A program made the translations under genes and the position numbers. This document shows, piece by piece, positions 29,198 to 63,397 of a DNA stretch of 64,000 nucleotides. Below the pieces are notes generated by a model. It was not told where the DNA came from, did no database searches, and saw only the letters and a program-made list of their open reading frames with translations. Within the stretch, counting starts at the first letter, position 1. The number at the start of each line of letters is the position of its first letter. Location of the stretch: assembly GCA_017517685.1 (NCBI GenBank), contig JAFWYK010000009.1, positions 1-64,000 of the forward strand. Direction: 5' to 3'. Source of the stretch: Clostridia bacterium. GTDB taxonomy: Bacteria; Bacillota; Clostridia; TANB77; CAG-508.

Positions 29198-29226
29198 TTG
29201 ACATAATTAAGTAGATATGCTATAAT
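29198..29226 (+). promoter_or_regulatory. Promoter of riboswitch-led operon 1
   Basis: TTGACA, 17 bases, TATAAT; consensus sigma-A promoter. Transcription would start just before the aptamer. Confidence 0.85.
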
Positions 29227-29229
29227 GAG

Positions 29230-29323
29230 CTTGTAGGGGAGTAATAACCATAGAGATATGGAATAGCATCAACAATTTGCGGAAACAAAACCTGGTGCTA
29301 TTTTAAAATATGAGACTTACTAG
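29230..29323 (+). promoter_or_regulatory. yybP-ykoY-type (Mn2+) riboswitch, copy 1
   Basis: CTTGTAGG pairs with CTTACTAG as the closing helix. GGGGAGTA follows, then hairpin CCATA/TATGG, then outer stem AATAGC/GCTATT enclosing the internal loop ATCAACA and ACCTGG, and a UUUG/CAAA tip. The pieces GGGGAGTA, (C/A)TCAA, ACC-GG and AGAC appear in the same order as in yybP-ykoY aptamers, which sense manganese. The stem pairs change compensatorily among the three copies here. Confidence 0.72.
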
Positions 29324-29352
29324 CAGGTTTGCTAATAAGATCTCAATTTTTT
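29312..29352 (+). terminator. Terminator 1 of the copy-1 leader
   Basis: GAGACTTACTAGCA pairs with TGCTAATAAGATCTC, then a T-run. Its 5' arm includes the 3' strand of the riboswitch closing helix, so the two folds exclude each other. Confidence 0.75.
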
Positions 29353-29377
29353 GTTTAAGTAAAGAATTCTTTCGTAG

Positions 29378-29409
29378 ACATATTTAGCAACGTGCTAAAT
29401 ATGTTTTTT
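29378..29409 (+). terminator. Terminator 2 of the copy-1 leader
   Basis: ACATATTTAGCA pairs with TGCTAAATATGT, then T-run; the ribosome site follows at once. Confidence 0.75.
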
Positions 29410-29436
29410 GTTTATAAAAAGAAGGAGGAATTTAAT

Positions 29437-29922
29437 ATGGAACAAAAAATTAATCAAACTGCGTTGGTAGGCCTTGCAAATAATAGCTTTGTAGCAAATT
29501 TACAAAGAACTAAAAAACAAGAGGTGCTTGATTTAATTGAAGGAATTAAATATGAGCATAGAGTTGGTACTTCAGCTATGATGGGACCATATTCTGATAG
29601 AGAAGCTAAACATGAATATGAAAAATTATTATCAGCTCTTGATGGAGTTCCAGGACTTAGTCAAGAAGAAAAAGCAGAACTTACTGCTTTGATAAATGCT
29701 GCAATCGAAAACATTCCTAATGTTGAGAAAGAAAAAGAAGAAGAATATTTAGAAGCTGAAAGACAACATAAAGAAGCGTTTGAAAGAGCTAAAGCAAGAT
29801 TTAAAGCTTTAAGCCCAGTTAAACAACTTAAATTAAAATTAGCTGGAAAAGATCCAGATAGCATTGATGTTTTCTGGAAAACTGTAAAGCAAATAGATGA
29901 ATTATATATAGAAAGTAGATAG
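29437..29922 (+). CDS. Unknown helical protein, riboswitch operon 1
   Basis: 161 residues, almost entirely helical, with a coiled-coil segment around 100-130 (EKEKEEEYLEAERQHKEAF). No signal peptide or membrane helix. GAAGGAGG precedes the start. First of three co-transcribed genes behind a manganese-type riboswitch leader. No family recognised. If the leader senses manganese, the protein may serve metal handling or storage, but it has no obvious cluster of metal ligands. Confidence 0.8.
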   Translation: MEQKINQTALVGLANNSFVANLQRTKKQEVLDLIEGIKYEHRVGTSAMMGPYSDREAKHEYEKLLSALDGVPGLSQEEKAELTALINAAIENIPNVEKEKEEEYLEAERQHKEAFERAKARFKALSPVKQLKLKLAGKDPDSIDVFWKTVKQIDELYIESR

Positions 29923-29932
29923 GTGAATTAAA

Positions 29933-30196
29933 ATGGAGGTTTATAGAAATCTTATTAATACATTCTCTAAACTTGATACTAAAACTAAAAGAGAAGAGAT
30001 TAAAGGTGAACTTCAAGAAACTTTAATGGTATTTGAAAAGTTATGTAGAAAGAAGAATGTTAAAAATGATATTTTACTTCATGAGCAAATGAGAAACTTA
30101 GAAAAAGAAAACATATCAGAAGATGAATGTTTAAATGCAATCTATAGTTACTTAATAGCAATTGAAGAAAGAATTGGTGATTATTTTACTAAATAG
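29933..30196 (+). CDS. Small helical protein, riboswitch operon 1
   Basis: 87 residues, helical, highly charged, ending KERIGDYFTK. Eleven bases separate it from the gene before; AGGTG precedes its ATG. Its end overlaps the untranslated start of the third gene. No family recognised. Possibly a subunit that pairs with its neighbour. Confidence 0.7.
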   Translation: MEVYRNLINTFSKLDTKTKREEIKGELQETLMVFEKLCRKKNVKNDILLHEQMRNLEKENISEDECLNAIYSYLIAIEERIGDYFTK

Positions 30197-30221: not shown

Positions 30222-30971
30222 ATGAAAGAAAATACTATTACATTACAACAAAGATTAGAAAAACAAATTGATGAATCAAGATTGAGCGAACAAGATAAAG
30301 AATATATGAAAAGAATAGTAGATGGAATTATTAAAGCTCCAAAAGGAAGACTTTATTTAATTAATAATCCAGATTTTCAAAGATACATGACTTTGAGAAA
30401 AGATGTATCTGATCTAAATAGCTCTTTAGACTATTGTTTAGTAAATGTTATGAAAAATCCTGACACAGGTTTTACTGAAGGGAGATCATATACATTTCCA
30501 GGTTTAAAAGGCTTTCTTAGACTTGCTCGTGAAAACGAGAGTGTGCTTGCTAGCGAGCTTGTTAATAGCCAAAATCATCAAAAAGTTAAATCGGGAGTTT
30601 CTAGTAGTGAAATTATGGCTCCTAAAGAAACAGAGGAACAAAGATGCAAAAGATTAACAAAAGAATCTATTGCAAGATTAGAAACTGTTCCAGATTATAA
30701 AAAACAAAGAGTTTATGATGCTTTAGATATGATTGATAAAATTGGAAAAATAAAAGCGGTAGATGAGCAAGATTATTCTGAGCATATTGCTATGAGAAGA
30801 GATGGAGGTATCCTGGGGTATTGTTTAGTGCAAAGAATGATAGATTATAGTGGTGCTACAGTCGGTAGAAGATATGTTCCGCTAGGAGCTAAAACTTTAG
30901 TTACTTATGTTGAAGAACATAGAGAAATAATAGATAAAGAAGTGAAAAAAGCTCAAGAACTTGATAGATAG
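30222..30971 (+). CDS. Unknown protein with an internal duplication, riboswitch operon 1
   Basis: 249 residues. Two roughly 90-residue halves resemble each other: LDYCLVNVMKNPDTGFTEG then YTFPGLKGFLRLARE in the first, LGYCLVQRMIDYSGATVG then YVPLGAKTLVTYVEE in the second. Each half is a helical stretch followed by a conserved Y-C-L-V and Y-x-P core. GTGAGGT precedes the ATG at 30222. Last gene of the operon; a good terminator follows. No family recognised. Confidence 0.75.
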   Translation: MKENTITLQQRLEKQIDESRLSEQDKEYMKRIVDGIIKAPKGRLYLINNPDFQRYMTLRKDVSDLNSSLDYCLVNVMKNPDTGFTEGRSYTFPGLKGFLRLARENESVLASELVNSQNHQKVKSGVSSSEIMAPKETEEQRCKRLTKESIARLETVPDYKKQRVYDALDMIDKIGKIKAVDEQDYSEHIAMRRDGGILGYCLVQRMIDYSGATVGRRYVPLGAKTLVTYVEEHREIIDKEVKKAQELDR

Positions 30972-31262: not shown

Positions 31263-33638
31263 ATGCCTTATACTATCAACCTCGATGCCCTGAAGTCTCA
31301 GTATAGAGAAGCTGCCCGGAACCTGTATGGTAAGGAATTAAATCAGCTGTCTCCTCATGAGATCAATGGCATCATCGCTAACGTGGTGAAGACGAAAGTA
31401 ATCTCTAAGAGCTGGGAGTGCGCTCAGAACTTGTACTCTCAGCAGAGAATTGCAATCTACTTCTCCATCGAATTCCTCATCGGTCGACTCGGCGTTGATG
31501 CGCTGGTTAATACTGACCTGATTGAGGAAACCAGAAAGATTTTTGAAGAAGAAGGAATCGACCTTAACTGTCTTGAAGAAGTTGGCGATCCTGCTCTCGG
31601 TAACGGCGGCCTTGGTCGTCTCGCTGCCTGCTTCATTGAATCCGCTGCTACTTTGGGTCTGCCGCTGTATGGCGTCGGTCTCTATTACAAGTACGGCCTT
31701 TTCAAGCAGGCGTTCGACGAAAATGGCTGGCAGATTTCTCAGCCGGATGATTGGGCAGCCAATGGAGTTGATCCTTGGTTTGAAGCTCATGAAGACGAAT
31801 ATGAAATCGTCGAGTTCCAGGATACCCGCGTTAAGGCAGTGCCTTACGTAATGCCTGTCATTGGTTACAAGACCAATGCATTCCCGCTCACGCTGTGGAA
31901 GGCAGAACCTATCGAAGGTCAGACCAACCACTCTGCTGCAGCAATCTCTGATTGGCTGTATCCGAGTGATGGCAACGATGAAGGTAAAATCCTTAGAATC
32001 CGTCAGGAGTATTTCTTTGTCAGCGCAATGCTGCAGAGACTCTTCAGGATTCACAAAGCAAAACATGGTACGCTCGATAACATCGAAGAGTACTATTTCT
32101 TCCAGATGAACGACACCCATCCGGTGTTCGGCTGTCTGGAGTTCATTAGACTCTTGAAGAATGAGGGCTATACGTTTGATAAGGCGTTTGAGAAGGCTAA
32201 GAAGTGCTTCGCTTACACCAATCATACTATTATGCCCGAAGCACTGGAAAAGTGGAACATTCTGCTTTTCAAGAACCTGCTGCCTAACGTGTTTAAGGTA
32301 GTTGAAGAAATCAATCAGAAACTCATTGAAGAACTCAAGAGAGAAGATGCTTTCTGCAACACCAAGCTCGAAGGTGGCCGCTATGTGAAAGAACCTGCAT
32401 GGGACAGAATCAATCCGTATGAGATGTTCCAGAACGGCTATGTTCACATGAGCCGCATCGCCTGCTACGTTGGTAGCAAGATCAATGGCGTTGCCGCAGT
32501 GCACACCGAGATCATTAAGAAGGACCTGCTCAACATCTGGTATACCCGTTATCCTTGGAAGTTTAACAACAAGACTAATGGCGTTACTCCGAGACGTTGG
32601 CTCAGACTGGCAAACCCGGATCTGGCAGAGTTCCTGGACAAGTATCTTGGTCCCGAGTGGACTACCAATATGACTATGCTCGAACAGCTTGAGGATTACA
32701 AGAACGACTCTGTCGTTCTGGCGGAATTTGCCGGTGTTAAGTACGAAGCTAAGAAGCGTCTTGCTGCGTACATCGAAAAGCACGAAGGTATTTACGTCGA
32801 TCCGGACAGCATTTTCGACTGCCAGGTGAAGAGAATTCACGAGTATAAGCGTCAGCTTATGAATGCTCTGAGAATTCTTTACATCTATGATCAGCTGAAG
32901 AAGGGCAAACTGCTCAACTTCTACAAGACCACCTTCATCATTGGCGGCAAGGCCGCTGCATCTTACAAGAAGGCAATTCAGACCATTGCTCTTATTAAGG
33001 ACATCCAGGAACTTGTTAACAACGACCCTGATGTTAATGATAAGATGAAGGTCGTGTTCCTGACGAACTTCAATGTCAGCTATGCCGAAAAGGTATACGC
33101 CGGCGCCAACTTCTCTGAACAGATTAGTACTGCAGGTACCGAAGCTTCTGGTACTGGTAATATGAAGTTCATGATGAATGGCTCTCCGACTATTGGTACC
33201 CTTGATGGCGCTAACATCGAAATCGTCGAGGAAGCCGGTTCCAAGAACAACTATATCTTTGGCGCAAACGTTGAAGAACTTAAGCGCATTAAGCCTATCT
33301 ACAATCACCATACCATCCTTGAAGCCAATAAGGAAATGGTAGCTCTGCTTGATTACCTTAAGGGTGAGAAGGGCCTGAGATCTACCTACTGGGACCTTGT
33401 CAATACTCTTCTGTATGACGATCGGTACTATGTTATGTACGATCTTGAGTCCTATATCAACACTAGCCTGAAGGCTATCGCTGAGTATGGTTTCGAACAG
33501 CAGACTGGTGAACTTGTTCACTACACGAGAAAGGCGTTTAAGAACACTGCACATAGCGGTAAGTTCTCGTCTGATCGTACGATCCTCGAATATGCCGAAG
33601 ACATTTGGCAGATCGAGCCCGTAAATTTTGAAGCTTAA
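31263..33638 (+). CDS. glgP: Glycogen/maltodextrin phosphorylase
   Basis: 791 residues, near the usual 800-840. GNGGLGRLAACF near the start, KRIHEYKRQLMN with the phosphate-binding residues, and EASGTGNMKFMMNG with the pyridoxal-phosphate lysine. It releases glucose-1-phosphate from alpha-1,4-glucan. The coding sequence is markedly richer in CTG, AAG, TTC and GCC codons than its surroundings, and the gene is alone with its own leader and terminator. malQ, needed to process the limit chains, lies 1.2 kb downstream but is AT-rich. Confidence 0.95.
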   Translation: MPYTINLDALKSQYREAARNLYGKELNQLSPHEINGIIANVVKTKVISKSWECAQNLYSQQRIAIYFSIEFLIGRLGVDALVNTDLIEETRKIFEEEGIDLNCLEEVGDPALGNGGLGRLAACFIESAATLGLPLYGVGLYYKYGLFKQAFDENGWQISQPDDWAANGVDPWFEAHEDEYEIVEFQDTRVKAVPYVMPVIGYKTNAFPLTLWKAEPIEGQTNHSAAAISDWLYPSDGNDEGKILRIRQEYFFVSAMLQRLFRIHKAKHGTLDNIEEYYFFQMNDTHPVFGCLEFIRLLKNEGYTFDKAFEKAKKCFAYTNHTIMPEALEKWNILLFKNLLPNVFKVVEEINQKLIEELKREDAFCNTKLEGGRYVKEPAWDRINPYEMFQNGYVHMSRIACYVGSKINGVAAVHTEIIKKDLLNIWYTRYPWKFNNKTNGVTPRRWLRLANPDLAEFLDKYLGPEWTTNMTMLEQLEDYKNDSVVLAEFAGVKYEAKKRLAAYIEKHEGIYVDPDSIFDCQVKRIHEYKRQLMNALRILYIYDQLKKGKLLNFYKTTFIIGGKAAASYKKAIQTIALIKDIQELVNNDPDVNDKMKVVFLTNFNVSYAEKVYAGANFSEQISTAGTEASGTGNMKFMMNGSPTIGTLDGANIEIVEEAGSKNNYIFGANVEELKRIKPIYNHHTILEANKEMVALLDYLKGEKGLRSTYWDLVNTLLYDDRYYVMYDLESYINTSLKAIAEYGFEQQTGELVHYTRKAFKNTAHSGKFSSDRTILEYAEDIWQIEPVNFEA

Positions 33639-33718: not shown

Positions 33719-33747
33719 TTGACATAATATCACAAACATGTTATAAT
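33719..33747 (+). promoter_or_regulatory. Promoter of riboswitch-led gene 2
   Basis: TTGACA, 17 bases, TATAAT. Confidence 0.85.
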
Positions 33748-33750
33748 TAA

Positions 33751-33844
33751 CTTGTAGGGGAGTAATAACCATATAAAATATGGAATAGCATCAACAATTC
33801 TGGAAACAAAACCTGGTGCTATTTTAAAATATGAGACTTACTTT
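33751..33844 (+). promoter_or_regulatory. yybP-ykoY-type (Mn2+) riboswitch, copy 2
   Basis: Same core as copy 1: GTAGG/CTTAC closing pair, GGGGAGTA, hairpin CCATAT/ATATGG (one extra pair compared with copy 1), AATAGC/GCTATT, loop ATCAACA and ACCTGG, tip with GGAAAC. The differences fall mostly in loops or keep base pairing. Confidence 0.72.
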
Positions 33845-33875
33845 GGTACAAAAGTACTAAAATAAGTCTTAATTT
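33834..33875 (+). terminator. Terminator 1 of the copy-2 leader
   Basis: AGACTTA...GTAC pairs with GTAC...TAAGTCT, then AATTTGTTT; the T-tract is weaker than in the other copies. Confidence 0.55.
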
Positions 33876-33904
33876 GTTTATAACTAAATAACCAAGCTAA
33901 CTAG

Positions 33905-33938
33905 ACATATTTAGTACTAAAGTACTAAATATGTTTTT
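33905..33938 (+). terminator. Terminator 2 of the copy-2 leader
   Basis: ACATATTTAGTAC pairs with GTACTAAATATGT, then T-run. Confidence 0.75.
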
Positions 33939-33960: not shown

Positions 33961-34731
33961 ATGAAAAAACAAGAATTCAAACCAAATTTCCTACAAAGGT
34001 TATTATTAAGAAAAGAGGATGTTCAGACAGAACGTCTTAGAGCGTTTTATTTTAAAATGCTTGAATCTGGTAGAGTACCTGCAAAATTGAAGGTAAAAGG
34101 TGTTACACCTGAAAGAGCTGCTAGTGATTTCTTAGAAGCGATAACATATGGTACTGATTTTGATCGTAGCCAAAAGCAATATGTTATTGATCATAGATAT
34201 ACAGAAGGAGATATGGATTGTAGACTTGTTTTAGAACAAGGATATCTTTCTGATTTTGAAATTGGTTATCCTGCTACAAGATATACTGTTGAAAAAGATG
34301 GAAACATAGTAAATCAATCAACAATTGGTGCTAATCTTTTTAGAGGTACAGAAATTGTTCCAATTATGGAATATGCAAGAATTATGCATGGAGATGAAAC
34401 ATACGCATATTTAATGGAGCTTGCTGCTAAAAAATTAGAATTATTTCCATATATTCCATGCGATGCTTCTTATGATTCAGCTCATGAAAGATATAAAGGA
34501 AAATTAATGAGATTTTTAAAGCTTGATCCAACAGCGAGAAGAATTATAAAAGAGTATAAAGCATTGAATAAAGAAAAAGATAAATATGATGTTATAAAGA
34601 AACCTAAAGACATTATTAGTGAGGCAAGTAAATTAAGATTTGATAACGAGTATACAGTTGATCCACAAGTAGCAAAAGTAATTAATATGCCTGTAAGACC
34701 ACCTAAAGAAAGAGAAAGAGCTGATGATTAG
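33961..34731 (+). CDS. Unknown protein behind riboswitch copy 2
   Basis: 256 residues, mixed helix and strand, no membrane segment. It starts MKKQEFKPNFLQRLLLRKED and contains a tyrosine/acidic-rich middle (TEGDMDCRLVLEQGYLSDF). TAAGGAGG precedes the ATG. Single-gene unit with a strong terminator. No family recognised and no clear similarity to the proteins of the other two riboswitch operons, although all three are leaderless cytoplasmic proteins. Confidence 0.78.
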   Translation: MKKQEFKPNFLQRLLLRKEDVQTERLRAFYFKMLESGRVPAKLKVKGVTPERAASDFLEAITYGTDFDRSQKQYVIDHRYTEGDMDCRLVLEQGYLSDFEIGYPATRYTVEKDGNIVNQSTIGANLFRGTEIVPIMEYARIMHGDETYAYLMELAAKKLELFPYIPCDASYDSAHERYKGKLMRFLKLDPTARRIIKEYKALNKEKDKYDVIKKPKDIISEASKLRFDNEYTVDPQVAKVINMPVRPPKERERADD

Positions 34732-47592: not shown

Positions 47593-47621
47593 TTGACATA
47601 ATTTTAAAAGTGTGCTATAAT
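47593..47621 (+). promoter_or_regulatory. Promoter of riboswitch-led operon 3
   Basis: TTGACA, 17 bases, TATAAT with TGC just before the -10 box. The 230 bases between the PIN gene and this promoter hold nothing else I recognise. Confidence 0.85.
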
Positions 47622-47624
47622 GAG

Positions 47625-47718
47625 CTTGTAGGGGAGTAATAACCATAGAAATGTGGAATTGCATCAACAATTTGCGGAAACAAAACCTGGTGCAATTTTA
47701 AAATATGAGACTTACTAG
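47625..47718 (+). promoter_or_regulatory. yybP-ykoY-type (Mn2+) riboswitch, copy 3
   Basis: Same core as copies 1 and 2. The outer stem here is AATTGC/GCAATT instead of AATAGC/GCTATT: a compensatory change keeping the pair. The hairpin CCATA/TGTGG keeps pairing through a G-U. Closing helix CTTGTAGG with CTTACTAG. Confidence 0.74.
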
Positions 47719-47752
47719 TACAAAAAGGTACTAATAAGGTCTCAGTTTTTTG
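47707..47752 (+). terminator. Terminator 1 of the copy-3 leader
   Basis: GAGACTTACTAGTAC pairs with GTACTAATAAGGTCTC, then TTTTTT; excludes the riboswitch closing helix. Confidence 0.75.
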
Positions 47753-47783
47753 TTTATAGGGAAAATAATATCAGATTAAATAG

Positions 47784-47824
47784 AGACATACTTAGTACCA
47801 AAAATACTAAGTATGTCTTTTTTT
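47784..47824 (+). terminator. Terminator 2 of the copy-3 leader
   Basis: AGACATACTTAGTA pairs with TACTAAGTATGTCT, then T-run. Confidence 0.75.
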
Positions 47825-47862: not shown

Positions 47863-47949
47863 ATGTCAGAACAAAGTGAAAATCAAGAAAACAAATTTAT
47901 ACTTTTAATTAAAAGTGTTGTAAACGGTCTTAAAATTATATTTGAATAG
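47863..47949 (+). CDS. Small 28-residue protein behind riboswitch copy 3
   Basis: MSEQSENQENKFILLIKSVV then NGLKIIFE. AGAAGGAAGGG precedes the ATG with good spacing. A polar N-terminus and an amphipathic or membrane-seeking C-terminal helix. No family recognised. May be a small protein in its own right or a translated leader to the 437-residue gene downstream. Confidence 0.5.
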   Translation: MSEQSENQENKFILLIKSVVNGLKIIFE

Positions 47950-47991: not shown

Positions 47992-49305
47992 ATGAATTTA
48001 TTACTGGTATTAGCACTTAAAAGAATCCATGATGACCAACAAGCGGCTGCAAGAAGACGTAGTAGAGCAAGAGAGGAAGCAAGAAGAAAGAAAAATGCTC
48101 CTAAAGATCATGCTCATAGATATTCTTCAAGAGAATATTCTGAAAATGAGTATTTTAATATGGTAGTAACAGAAGATGAAGTATTAACAGCATTCTTTGA
48201 TGCATTAGAGAAAAAAGGAAAACAAATTGATGATAAAGATGCTGAAGAAGTAAGAAAAGTAGTTGAAGAAAAATTAAAACTTCAAGCAGAACGTGTAGAT
48301 GAAATTAATAAAACATTAGCTGAAATTAAAGCTACTGGATTAGAACTTGATACAGATCAAGAAGAATATTTCTATTATAAAACAACTGTTGGTAAAAAAG
48401 TATTAGATGCCTGTGAACCAGCTTTTGGTGAAAAAGGTGAATATGCTAAAGTAAAAAAATCTTTTCAATTAGCTTATAAAGGAATTACATTAGATAGAGC
48501 TTGGTTTAGAGCTGATAGAATAGATGAAAACCCATTTGAAGTAAGACTTACTGATTGGGAACAAAGAAATCCAAATTTAGACCAAGAGATTCAAGAAAAA
48601 GAAGCAGCTGTAGAAGCTGCTGAAAAAAGATTAAAACATGCAATATTTGGTAAAGAAGAAAAACAAGATGAATTAAATAAATTAAAGAAAGAATTAGAAA
48701 GATTAAAAGAAGCAAAAGTTGATGGTGAAAAAATCGCATCTCAAAGAGATATATATGCAGAAATTACACCAGAGCAAAAAGCTTTAATTGCAAAATATTT
48801 TGATCAAGTAGATGTATGTAAAGAGGCTGGTAAGGATGTTGACAAAGACATTGAAAAATATACTCAAATTAAAGATGATTCTTACCGTTATTCATACAAT
48901 AAAGAAAAATCAGATAAAGAAAGAAATAAATGGCAAAGAGCATTAGACGAATTATTTGCTGATGGAGATGCTTCAGAAGAATTGTTAGATGCTATCGATA
49001 CAATCTTATCTGAAGAAGCTATCGGATATGAAAAGTATTCTGAAGGTAAAGATACATATCAAATGCAAAGAGAAGGTCACTCTGAAACATTTTCTAAATT
49101 AATTGGTTGGTATATAGATACAAGAAGAGAAAAAATAGCAACTAAAGGATTAGATAGAAGAGAAGCTGCATATGCGGCTCTTGCTAAAGAAAATAATAAA
49201 TTATTAGAACTTGCTGGATTAGTAGATGAAGCAAAAGCTTTAGAAAATCCAGATGAAAAAGGTAAAAAAGATCCAAAAGGAGATGAAGAATATGGAGATG
49301 AATAG
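47992..49305 (+). CDS. Large coiled-coil protein, riboswitch operon 3
   Basis: 437 residues. A hydrophobic start (MNLLLVLALKRI) followed by an Arg/Ala-rich stretch, then mainly helices with a long coiled coil around 200-245 (LDQEIQEKEAAVEAAEKRLK). The end is rich in Asp, Glu and Lys. GGGGG precedes the ATG. No family recognised. Followed by two further unknown genes, the first overlapping its stop. Confidence 0.77.
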   Translation: MNLLLVLALKRIHDDQQAAARRRSRAREEARRKKNAPKDHAHRYSSREYSENEYFNMVVTEDEVLTAFFDALEKKGKQIDDKDAEEVRKVVEEKLKLQAERVDEINKTLAEIKATGLELDTDQEEYFYYKTTVGKKVLDACEPAFGEKGEYAKVKKSFQLAYKGITLDRAWFRADRIDENPFEVRLTDWEQRNPNLDQEIQEKEAAVEAAEKRLKHAIFGKEEKQDELNKLKKELERLKEAKVDGEKIASQRDIYAEITPEQKALIAKYFDQVDVCKEAGKDVDKDIEKYTQIKDDSYRYSYNKEKSDKERNKWQRALDELFADGDASEELLDAIDTILSEEAIGYEKYSEGKDTYQMQREGHSETFSKLIGWYIDTRREKIATKGLDRREAAYAALAKENNKLLELAGLVDEAKALENPDEKGKKDPKGDEEYGDE

Positions 49306-49498
49306 AAAACTTGAAAAATTTCAAGAACTATTAAAACTTCAAGAAAAAGTTAGAAAAGGTTTAGTAAATAAAGAAGATTTAACGTATAAAGAAAAAATAA
49401 TGCTTTGTAGGTTATACGATGTACAAATGAATGAAAAAGAAGATGAAAATAAAAGACTACTTGATAAAGTAGTTGAATATAAAAAGAAAATTAGTTAA
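49292..49498 (+). CDS. Small helical protein, riboswitch operon 3
   Basis: 68 residues, helical and charged (NRKLEKFQELLKLQEKVRKG). Starts inside the end of the preceding gene; an in-frame ATG at 49298 is the alternative. AAAAGGAGA precedes it. Position and size resemble the 87-residue gene in operon 1. No family recognised. Confidence 0.65.
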   Translation: MEMNRKLEKFQELLKLQEKVRKGLVNKEDLTYKEKIMLCRLYDVQMNEKEDENKRLLDKVVEYKKKIS

Positions 49499-49521: not shown

Positions 49522-50685
49522 ATGGAAGTTTATGATTTTGATTATGGATGGAGTAGAATTCGTGCAAGAATTTGGAAGTCAGGATCTGTTTATATCGATA
49601 TGCCATCAAGAATTGGATTTAGAGATACAATTTGTTTAGAAGAAAGAGGGTGGAGATATACATCTACACAAGATGATTGTATAGATTATATATTCCATAT
49701 GTGGATGAAAGACAATGGTATGATGTCTTGGGCTAATGATATGAGCCGAGGAATTCAATATTTGGATGAACCTTTTAATCCAGATTATCCTAATGCAGAT
49801 TTGTTAAATGATACAGCAATGAAACTTTATACTATCTCTCATAAGATAAGAGATTATCAAAAGAGAAATCTTCCAGTACATGATGTCTTTGAATTAAGAA
49901 AATTATATTTAACAACTGCTTTAAAAACTTTAGGTTATGATAGTATTGCTGCTGTTGGAGAACCTTTAGATGATTCTAGAGGTTACTTAGGACTTACAAA
50001 AGTTGTAGATAGTTTAGAAAAGTATTTGGATTTATCTCGTTTAGTATTCTCTCCTGGTAAATATGGTGATTACGAACAAGTTAAATGTAGAGCATTAGAA
50101 ACTGTTACTAGAGAGCAAATGATTGAGTATGTAAAACCAGTTAAAGATCAAATCGATGAATTTGTTGCATTTATGCAAGATAAAGAAGATGGGCTTACAG
50201 CAAAAAGAAGAGTATTTCCAGAATACAGAACTAAGATGAAAGAAAAAGGTGGAGAATATTCATTTGATGCATATGAAGAAAAAGTAAAAGCTGTTGCTAT
50301 GTTACTTCTTGAACTTAATGCAGACCTTTTAACTGATGAAGAAAGAGAAAAATTCGGAATTAAACCATTTGAAGTAAAACCTGAAATTGAGGTAGAAGAT
50401 CGAATTTCAAGTTTAATAGATTCAGAAGAATTTAATGATGCTTGTAAATTTGAAGATACTTATGCTTATGATGAATCTAAAGAATTAGTTAGAAGGTTAA
50501 GAGAAATTTCTCCAGATAATATTTCTATTACTAGAGAAGAAGTTGTTAAATTATTAGAAGATGAGTTGAAAGAACTTGAAGAAAGAAGAACTTCTGTTGG
50601 AACTCATGAGATTATTCATAAAAAATACTATTCTAAAACTAGAAAATCAGAAGTAAAACAAAGAGAAGATGAATTTTTATATTAA
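49522..50685 (+). CDS. Unknown protein, riboswitch operon 3
   Basis: 387 residues. N-terminal beta-rich part with several aromatic residues (VYDFDYGWSRIRARIWKSGS), then helical. No signal or membrane segment. Start 49522 preferred because TAGAAAGG lies nine bases upstream; 49513 is too close. Ends before a good terminator. No family recognised. Confidence 0.77.
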   Translation: MEVYDFDYGWSRIRARIWKSGSVYIDMPSRIGFRDTICLEERGWRYTSTQDDCIDYIFHMWMKDNGMMSWANDMSRGIQYLDEPFNPDYPNADLLNDTAMKLYTISHKIRDYQKRNLPVHDVFELRKLYLTTALKTLGYDSIAAVGEPLDDSRGYLGLTKVVDSLEKYLDLSRLVFSPGKYGDYEQVKCRALETVTREQMIEYVKPVKDQIDEFVAFMQDKEDGLTAKRRVFPEYRTKMKEKGGEYSFDAYEEKVKAVAMLLLELNADLLTDEEREKFGIKPFEVKPEIEVEDRISSLIDSEEFNDACKFEDTYAYDESKELVRRLREISPDNISITREEVVKLLEDELKELEERRTSVGTHEIIHKKYYSKTRKSEVKQREDEFLY

Positions 50686-57892: not shown

Positions 57893-57985
57893 TATTGAAT
57901 GAAATTACTAGAAAAATTAGGTTAAAATATAAGCATGGTTGAAAATATAGAAATGCTTGTTTGAATAAAATATGCAAGATTTTAT

Positions 57986-58040
57986 AAAAAAGAAAAAGTC
58001 CCTTGAAAAAGGGACTTAATGGTGTACCCATACGGTAGAT
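57986..58040 (+). repeat. Left 55-bp direct repeat flanking the retron island
   Basis: Matches 63343-63397 with two differences. It contains the hairpin AAGTCCC/GGGACTT and then ACCCATACGGTAGAT. Read on the minus strand it gives TGGGT(A/G)CACCA followed by a hairpin and T-run, like the end of a tRNA-Arg gene with its terminator. Confidence 0.75.
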
Positions 58041-63117: not shown

Positions 63118-63162
63118 ATATCTAAAAAAAGTGCTTTTAATGGCACTTTTTTTAGATATTTG
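63118..63162 (+). terminator. Terminator of the retron operon
   Basis: ATATCTAAAAAAAGTGC pairs over 17 bases with GCACTTTTTTTAGATAT. Confidence 0.8.
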
Positions 63163-63243: not shown

Positions 63244-63342
63244 TGTTTAAAAATGTTGTAAAAAATTTAAAAAAGTTTAAAACAGTTTAAAATAGGTAAA
63301 AGTATAGAAATGCTTATTTTGATATAGTTTGATAGATTTTTT

Positions 63343-63397
63343 AAAAAAGAAAAAGCCCCTTGAAAAAGGGACTTAATGGTGCACCCATACGGTAGAT
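63343..63397 (+). repeat. Right 55-bp direct repeat flanking the retron island
   Basis: Matches 57986-58040 apart from two bases. Weaker similarity (TATAGAAATGCTT) extends about 40 bases to the left in both copies. Confidence 0.75.

Follow-up and report, generated by a model that had tools for sequence, protein, structure and literature searches.

The leader at positions 29231-29320 of the window (the whole 64,000-nucleotide stretch of the Clostridia bacterium contig JAFWYK010000009.1 that was analysed) is, judged by its sequence and covarying structure, a member of the yybP-ykoY riboswitch family, and probably turns its operon ON when binding of Mn2+ forms helix P1, which would block a first terminator (T1) and then, by a predicted relay, a second one (T2). 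The window holds three such leaders, and the features to which we refer below are the following.

29198..29226, + strand: copy 1 promoter, TTGACA, 17-nt spacer, TATAAT (sequence, promoter count)
29231..29320, + strand: copy 1 aptamer, yybP-ykoY type (models R1/R2; RF00080 at 14.9-16.2 bits)
29312..29352, + strand: copy 1 H1/T1 (the first hairpin), followed by a U-tract; the P1 3' strand is part of the 5' arm
29377..29412, + strand: copy 1 T2 with U-tract
29437..29922, + strand: operon 1, 161-aa protein, no family above cut-off
29933..30196, + strand: operon 1, 87-aa protein, no family above cut-off
30222..30971, + strand: operon 1, 249-aa protein, no family above cut-off
33719..33747, + strand: copy 2 promoter (sequence, promoter count)
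33752..33841, + strand: copy 2 aptamer (models R1/R2)
33833..33870, + strand: copy 2 H1/T1, weak U-tract
33904..33935, + strand: copy 2 T2
33961..34731, + strand: copy 2 target, 256-aa protein from a narrow family whose charged C-terminal end is conserved
47593..47621, + strand: copy 3 promoter (promoter count)
47626..47715, + strand: copy 3 aptamer (models R1/R2)
47707..47743, + strand: copy 3 H1/T1
47783..47819, + strand: copy 3 T2
47863..47949, + strand: possible reading frame of 28 codons, preceding operon 3 (L005 has a comparable short frame after its leader)
47992..49305, + strand: operon 3, 437-aa protein, no family above cut-off
49292..49498, + strand: operon 3, 68-aa protein
49522..50685, + strand: operon 3, 387-aa protein, with an orthologue under the same leader in L005/L084

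The core GTAGGGGAGTAATAACCAT starts at 29233, 33754 and 47628, always on the + strand, while the chance expectation for this 19-base core, counted in shuffled sequence, is 0.01 matches. The sequence-only reading had described near-identical leaders at 33.7 and 47.6 kb, each before a different gene set, and this was confirmed, with 92% (copy 2) and 96% (copy 3) identity to copy 1 across 105-106 nt. The genome-wide search for further copies that it had proposed yielded three more: (i) a fourth near-identical copy (94%) at C4:104047, in the same genome and outside the window contig; (ii) a leader at C10:85306, found with a covariance model built from these leaders, which heads the gene of a protein starting MITLQH; and (iii) a leader at C4:7416, recovered by the same kind of model before the genome's own mntP. 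The total for this genome is at least six leaders, as scoring with the models was limited to the top candidates from an initial pass. By DNA similarity across 56 genomes, near-identical leaders were confined to this one genome, with three weaker matches elsewhere, and a covariance model was therefore needed to follow the family further. The aptamers of copies 1-4 are mutually 91-96% identical, and that of copy 1 is 99% identical to a leader in genome G473 preceding an orthologue of the last gene of operon 3; from this degree of identity, the leader cassettes must have spread or been homogenised.

Other features of the window deserve mention in their own right. A second direct repeat occupies 57935-58040 and 63292-63397 (106 nt, 86% identical), and a near-perfect, AT-rich inverted repeat at 63119-63158, perhaps a two-way terminator, gives a weak sub-threshold match to a microRNA family on both strands. 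At 31263-33638 lies a 791-aa frame, which we take to resemble glycogen phosphorylase; its G+C content is 39-46% amid approximately 27%, and a 775-aa open frame runs on the opposite strand.

The assignment of the window leaders to the yybP-ykoY (Mn2+) riboswitch family is supported by three features, namely, the covarying structure, the sequence of the ligand loops and the canonical targets of relatives. The ordered elements that the sequence-only reading had listed (GGGGAGTA, ATCAACA, ACCTGG and AGAC) are all present in the leader, with the P2 hairpin between the first two. The matching secondary structure that it had noted was borne out in part, with P1, P2 and P3 appearing in the minimum free energy folds of copies 1 and 2 and copy 3 alone differing, and folding energies lie only modestly below those of shuffles (z of -1.7 to -2.2). 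Likewise, the exchange of AATAGC/GCTATT for AATTGC/GCAATT, put forward as direct covariation evidence, is real and holds in alignments of 28 and 66 leaders, but it amounts to one pair, A-U becoming U-A, which is seen in copies 3 and 4 and is thin on its own.

Model R1, built from five near-identical leaders, gave 29 matches in 21 of 287 genomes of the order (E≤0.01), while model R2 gave 62 matches in 45 of 390 genomes of the family and had matches in 75 of 391 genomes of the class. Three matches were dropped before counting: L034 and L035, both from R1, in which the loop elements are missing and the sequence resembles a coding region, and a weak L005 match judged spurious. In the alignment of the 66 leaders retained from the order search with R1 and the family search with R2, 90.2% of cells are paired and 19 of 26 pairs show changes on both sides, values that none of 500 shuffles and no slid register came near, with the qualification that fitting the alignment to the model favors such statistics. 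The structure is not equally well kept throughout: the third P1.2 pair is unpaired in 58 of the 66 leaders, and 49.7% of cells are paired within the inner P3 helix. The L1 sequence GGGAGTA is kept in 66/66 leaders and the L3 sequence [CT]CAACA in 63/66, the remaining three retaining CAA; L3 is the loop in which the Mn2+-contacting adenosine is reported to sit (PMC6754395). Both loops are identical between these leaders and the mntP leaders of the clade, and from family membership together with the unchanged metal loop we infer that the ligand would be Mn2+.

The Rfam model itself remained below its gathering threshold of 45 bits in the search that the sequence-only reading had suggested. Short scans of copy 1 scored 14.9 and 16.2 bits with the loops in register, whereas the scan of the whole window returned no RF00080 match at E≤1 and the search of the leader's own genome none at E≤0.001. 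At gathering, RF00080 was likewise found in none of 40 scanned loci, mostly before canonical genes; it was detected in 4 of 20 class-level loci (21-37 bits) and in 1 of 20 order-level loci (26 bits). Since canonical leaders there also fall below gathering, the cut-off is set too high for this clade; a sub-threshold score is not disqualifying, and the leaders keep their place in the family. Separately, sub-cut-off matches to RF02617 (SSRC10, 'Streptococcus sRNA 10') overlap leaders found by yybP-ykoY-type models in loci L018, L023, L027, L031, L123, L124, L125, L128, L134, L135, L139 and L140, and RF02617 may describe part of this riboswitch family by a different name.

The 66 leaders are of two kinds. 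Forty-two precede mntP, Na/Ca-exchanger or P-type ATPase genes, identified by hallmark motifs (six were checked with Pfam), and the other 24, spread over 13 genomes and including all three window copies, precede unrelated, mostly uncharacterised genes. The suggestion of a regulon of uncharacterised proteins is upheld by these 24 and by the five leaders of the window's own genome that head non-canonical, mostly uncharacterised genes, but it does not extend to copy 4, the target of which is a PfkB-type kinase gene. The two kinds also differ in architecture. A consensus promoter (TTGACA and a -10 element with at most two mismatches) accompanies 24/24 non-canonical but 4/42 canonical leaders, and T2 is present in 23 of the 24 (L049 is without it), while a second hairpin by the same rule occurs in 2 of the 42, in L090 inside coding sequence. 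The promoter (TTGACA, 17 nt, TATAAT) lies inside the repeat; the sequence-only reading had missed it, as it had the second terminator. Targets among the 24 include the three window operons, PfkB kinases (three genomes), MITLQH proteins (three genomes) in two genomes, genes recognised by eye that are presumably DapA-like, and other operons that are mostly uncharacterised. Some targets are found again: in a metagenome-assembled genome from roe-deer caecum, the same leader controls the gene of a protein 64-66% identical to the 387-aa product of operon 3. Just upstream of the MITLQH leader, a 6S RNA gene (74-79 bits) was observed in L042 (1258-1448) and L026 (1258-1449).

Copy 1 contains the aptamer, the promoter, T2 and an overlap of the P1 3' strand with H1, and most of its sister leaders have the potential for H1-T2 pairing. 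In copies 1-3, the P1 3' strand is at the same time the 5' arm of H1, and the first terminator overlaps the P1 3' strand in 39 of the 42 canonical leaders; competition of this sort between the P1 3' strand and a terminator is known in the Lactococcus lactis switch (PMC11087558). The 5' arm of T2 resembles that of H1, and hence the H1 3' arm can pair with the T2 5' arm. Summed over 23 leaders, the cognate H1-T2 pairing amounts to -304.3 kcal/mol, compared to a permuted mean of -174.1 (sd 14.1), the cognate sum being reached in 0/20,000 permutations, with the same outcome (0/20,000) on 17 representatives. Set against mononucleotide shuffles, 17 of the 23 pairings were below 0.05, and set against 60 control terminators elsewhere in the same loci, 21 ranked in the best 5%, the exceptions being L046:1706 (10/60 controls as good) and copy 1 itself (21/60 as good), in which the pairing is weak (-7.1 kcal/mol; shuffle p of 0.25-0.29).

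In transcripts cut before the T2 3' arm, forcing P1 lifted mean capture of the T2 5' arm to 0.77, as against 0.29 otherwise, with a gain above 0.1 in 21/23 leaders; capture of non-cognate T2s had a mean of 0.48 and was below the cognate value in 23/23. When P1 is forced in full-length folds, T2 nevertheless prevails (mean 0.84), and the relay consequently needs co-transcriptional kinetics. H1 was not predicted in L086 and L117 even without P1. At most three U residues are found in the nine bases after H1 in 7 of 23 leaders (L086, L046 twice, L047, L120, L121 and L122, the last being doubtful in this count because its stem itself ends in U), so that T2 would be the main stop there, which fits H1 acting through T2. 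Across the class, the terminator overlaps P1 in 23 of 28 leaders and not in L126, L138, L143, L148 and L150; among the four in which pairing was scored, p<0.05 was reached in L143 and L148 only. This gives no more than a hint of a relay before mntP elsewhere.

The switch that we propose would operate in the following steps: (i) without Mn2+, H1 would form and, given a U-tract, stop transcription; (ii) polymerase escaping H1 would then meet T2; (iii) with Mn2+, P1 would take the H1 5' arm and break H1; and (iv) the freed H1 3' arm would catch the T2 5' arm before the T2 3' arm is made. Unrelated, mostly uncharacterised operons could thereby share a single signal, their promoter being strong and leakage probably low. 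It is less probable, but deserves serious weight, that the Mn2+ riboswitch controls the first hairpin only and that T2 is a backup terminator, perhaps a copy of T1, outside aptamer control. The greater stability of T2 in full-length folds, the arm sequences common to T1 and T2, as duplication would give, and a copy 1 pairing no better than many controls are all consistent with this; however, the shared arms match within leaders yet differ between them (T1 and T2 of copy 1 have both changed to TAGCA/TGCTA, those of the sisters being TAGTAC/GTACTA), and the 7/23 first hairpins with at most three U residues in nine bases point to T2 as the main stop.

We consider it improbable that the leaders keep the yybP-ykoY fold but respond to a different divalent metal, although this would account for the odd targets: a review anticipates that some yybP RNAs have other ligands and that variants of changed metal specificity underlie the diversity of associated genes (PMC7266159), and the PfkB kinase and similar targets are not metal transporters, but L1 and L3 are as in the clade's mntP leaders. 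Very improbable is the absence of any riboswitch, the resemblance to yybP-ykoY then being that of a leader bound by a protein or of a mobile cassette made up of promoter and leader. In its favor, RF00080 is below gathering, copies 1-4 are 91-96% alike before unrelated genes, and only 1 of 53 genomes of the genus encodes the copy 2 protein. Against it, our models also recover leaders of mntP, exchanger and P-type ATPase genes at the level of order and family, and of mntP and ATPase genes at that of the class, and the copy 1 leader is unmatched in 72,556 plasmid and 50,697 phage records.

With regard to the products, the three proteins of operon 1 had been called unrecognised, and indeed neither they nor the other unknown products of the three window operons match a Pfam or NCBIfam family above cut-off (Pfam only for the 68- and 98-aa proteins). 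The 256-aa protein under copy 2 has 14 database matches, none with a Pfam domain, and its family conserves the charged C-terminal end, which is preceded by a variable stretch. Structure models of this protein (pLDDT 78) and of a MITLQH protein (pLDDT 95) found no PDB match at E≤0.001. The MITLQH family comprises 295 proteins with no Pfam assignment (for example, L044 5528-6373), and its invariant His, Asp and Glu residues (H6, D32, H45, E47, H115, D119 and D123) could bind metal. No such leader lies near distant MITLQH homologues in three genomes, and a search of viral contigs for MITLQH relatives found none. The last 12 residues encoded by the first genes of the 24 leaders are polar and acidic, with an acidic fraction of 0.28, versus 0.13 in the background (p of 5.5e-7; 4.8e-5 on 13 representatives), which is a lead only, as the background consists of 296 mechanically read frames. 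The charged, acidic C-terminal ends of otherwise unrelated products hint at a common destination or partner. Tentatively, and with somewhat more doubt than belief, the Mn2+ riboswitch may be regarded as the master switch of a lineage-specific regulon, in which a two-stage relay, with T2 mimicking the H1 5' arm, would let one binding event open two terminators and the similar acidic ends would hint at such a shared destination or partner.

Compared to known systems, the leaders resemble the yybP-ykoY (RF00080) switch of L. lactis in the L1 and L3 loops, the P1/P2/P3 layout and the sharing of the P1 3' strand with a terminator, but differ from it in their mostly uncharacterised targets, the promoter inside the repeat, the sub-threshold Rfam score and the second terminator with its predicted relay. 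In trp-type attenuators, a middle strand pairs either upstream or downstream and so decides the formation of a later terminator; here, the choice would be driven by an aptamer and not by ribosome position, and the upstream hairpin can itself terminate. A comparative study links yybP-ykoY mostly to transporters. The nearest platform that we found in the literature is the dual terminator of Bc1, a c-di-GMP-I riboswitch of Bacillus thuringiensis with two rho-independent terminators 28 bp apart, an arrangement that the authors call rarely seen (PMC11218506). Like Bc1, copies 1-3 have one aptamer followed by two rho-independent terminators before the start codon; unlike Bc1, they have another aptamer and ligand, so they would work like Bc1 without being members. 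Bc1 also acts on translation, and mimicry between T1 and T2 arms is not reported for it in the available part of that study. In the open-licence literature, we found no paper on (i) yybP-ykoY with tandem terminators, (ii) a riboswitch with an anti-antiterminator and a second terminator, (iii) any three of yybP-ykoY, ribokinase, PfkB and dapA together, or (iv) a manganese riboswitch with a dual terminator.

To conclude, the known role of yybP-ykoY is the control of cation-transporter genes, and in one clade they seem to serve as a general manganese signal for a set of uncharacterised operons, which makes the role of that signal testable. In AT-rich Clostridia, likely Mn2+ riboswitches, those before mntP among them, escape the Rfam cut-off. 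The relay, if true, would provide a compact route to a tight OFF state, with one aptamer behind a strong promoter.
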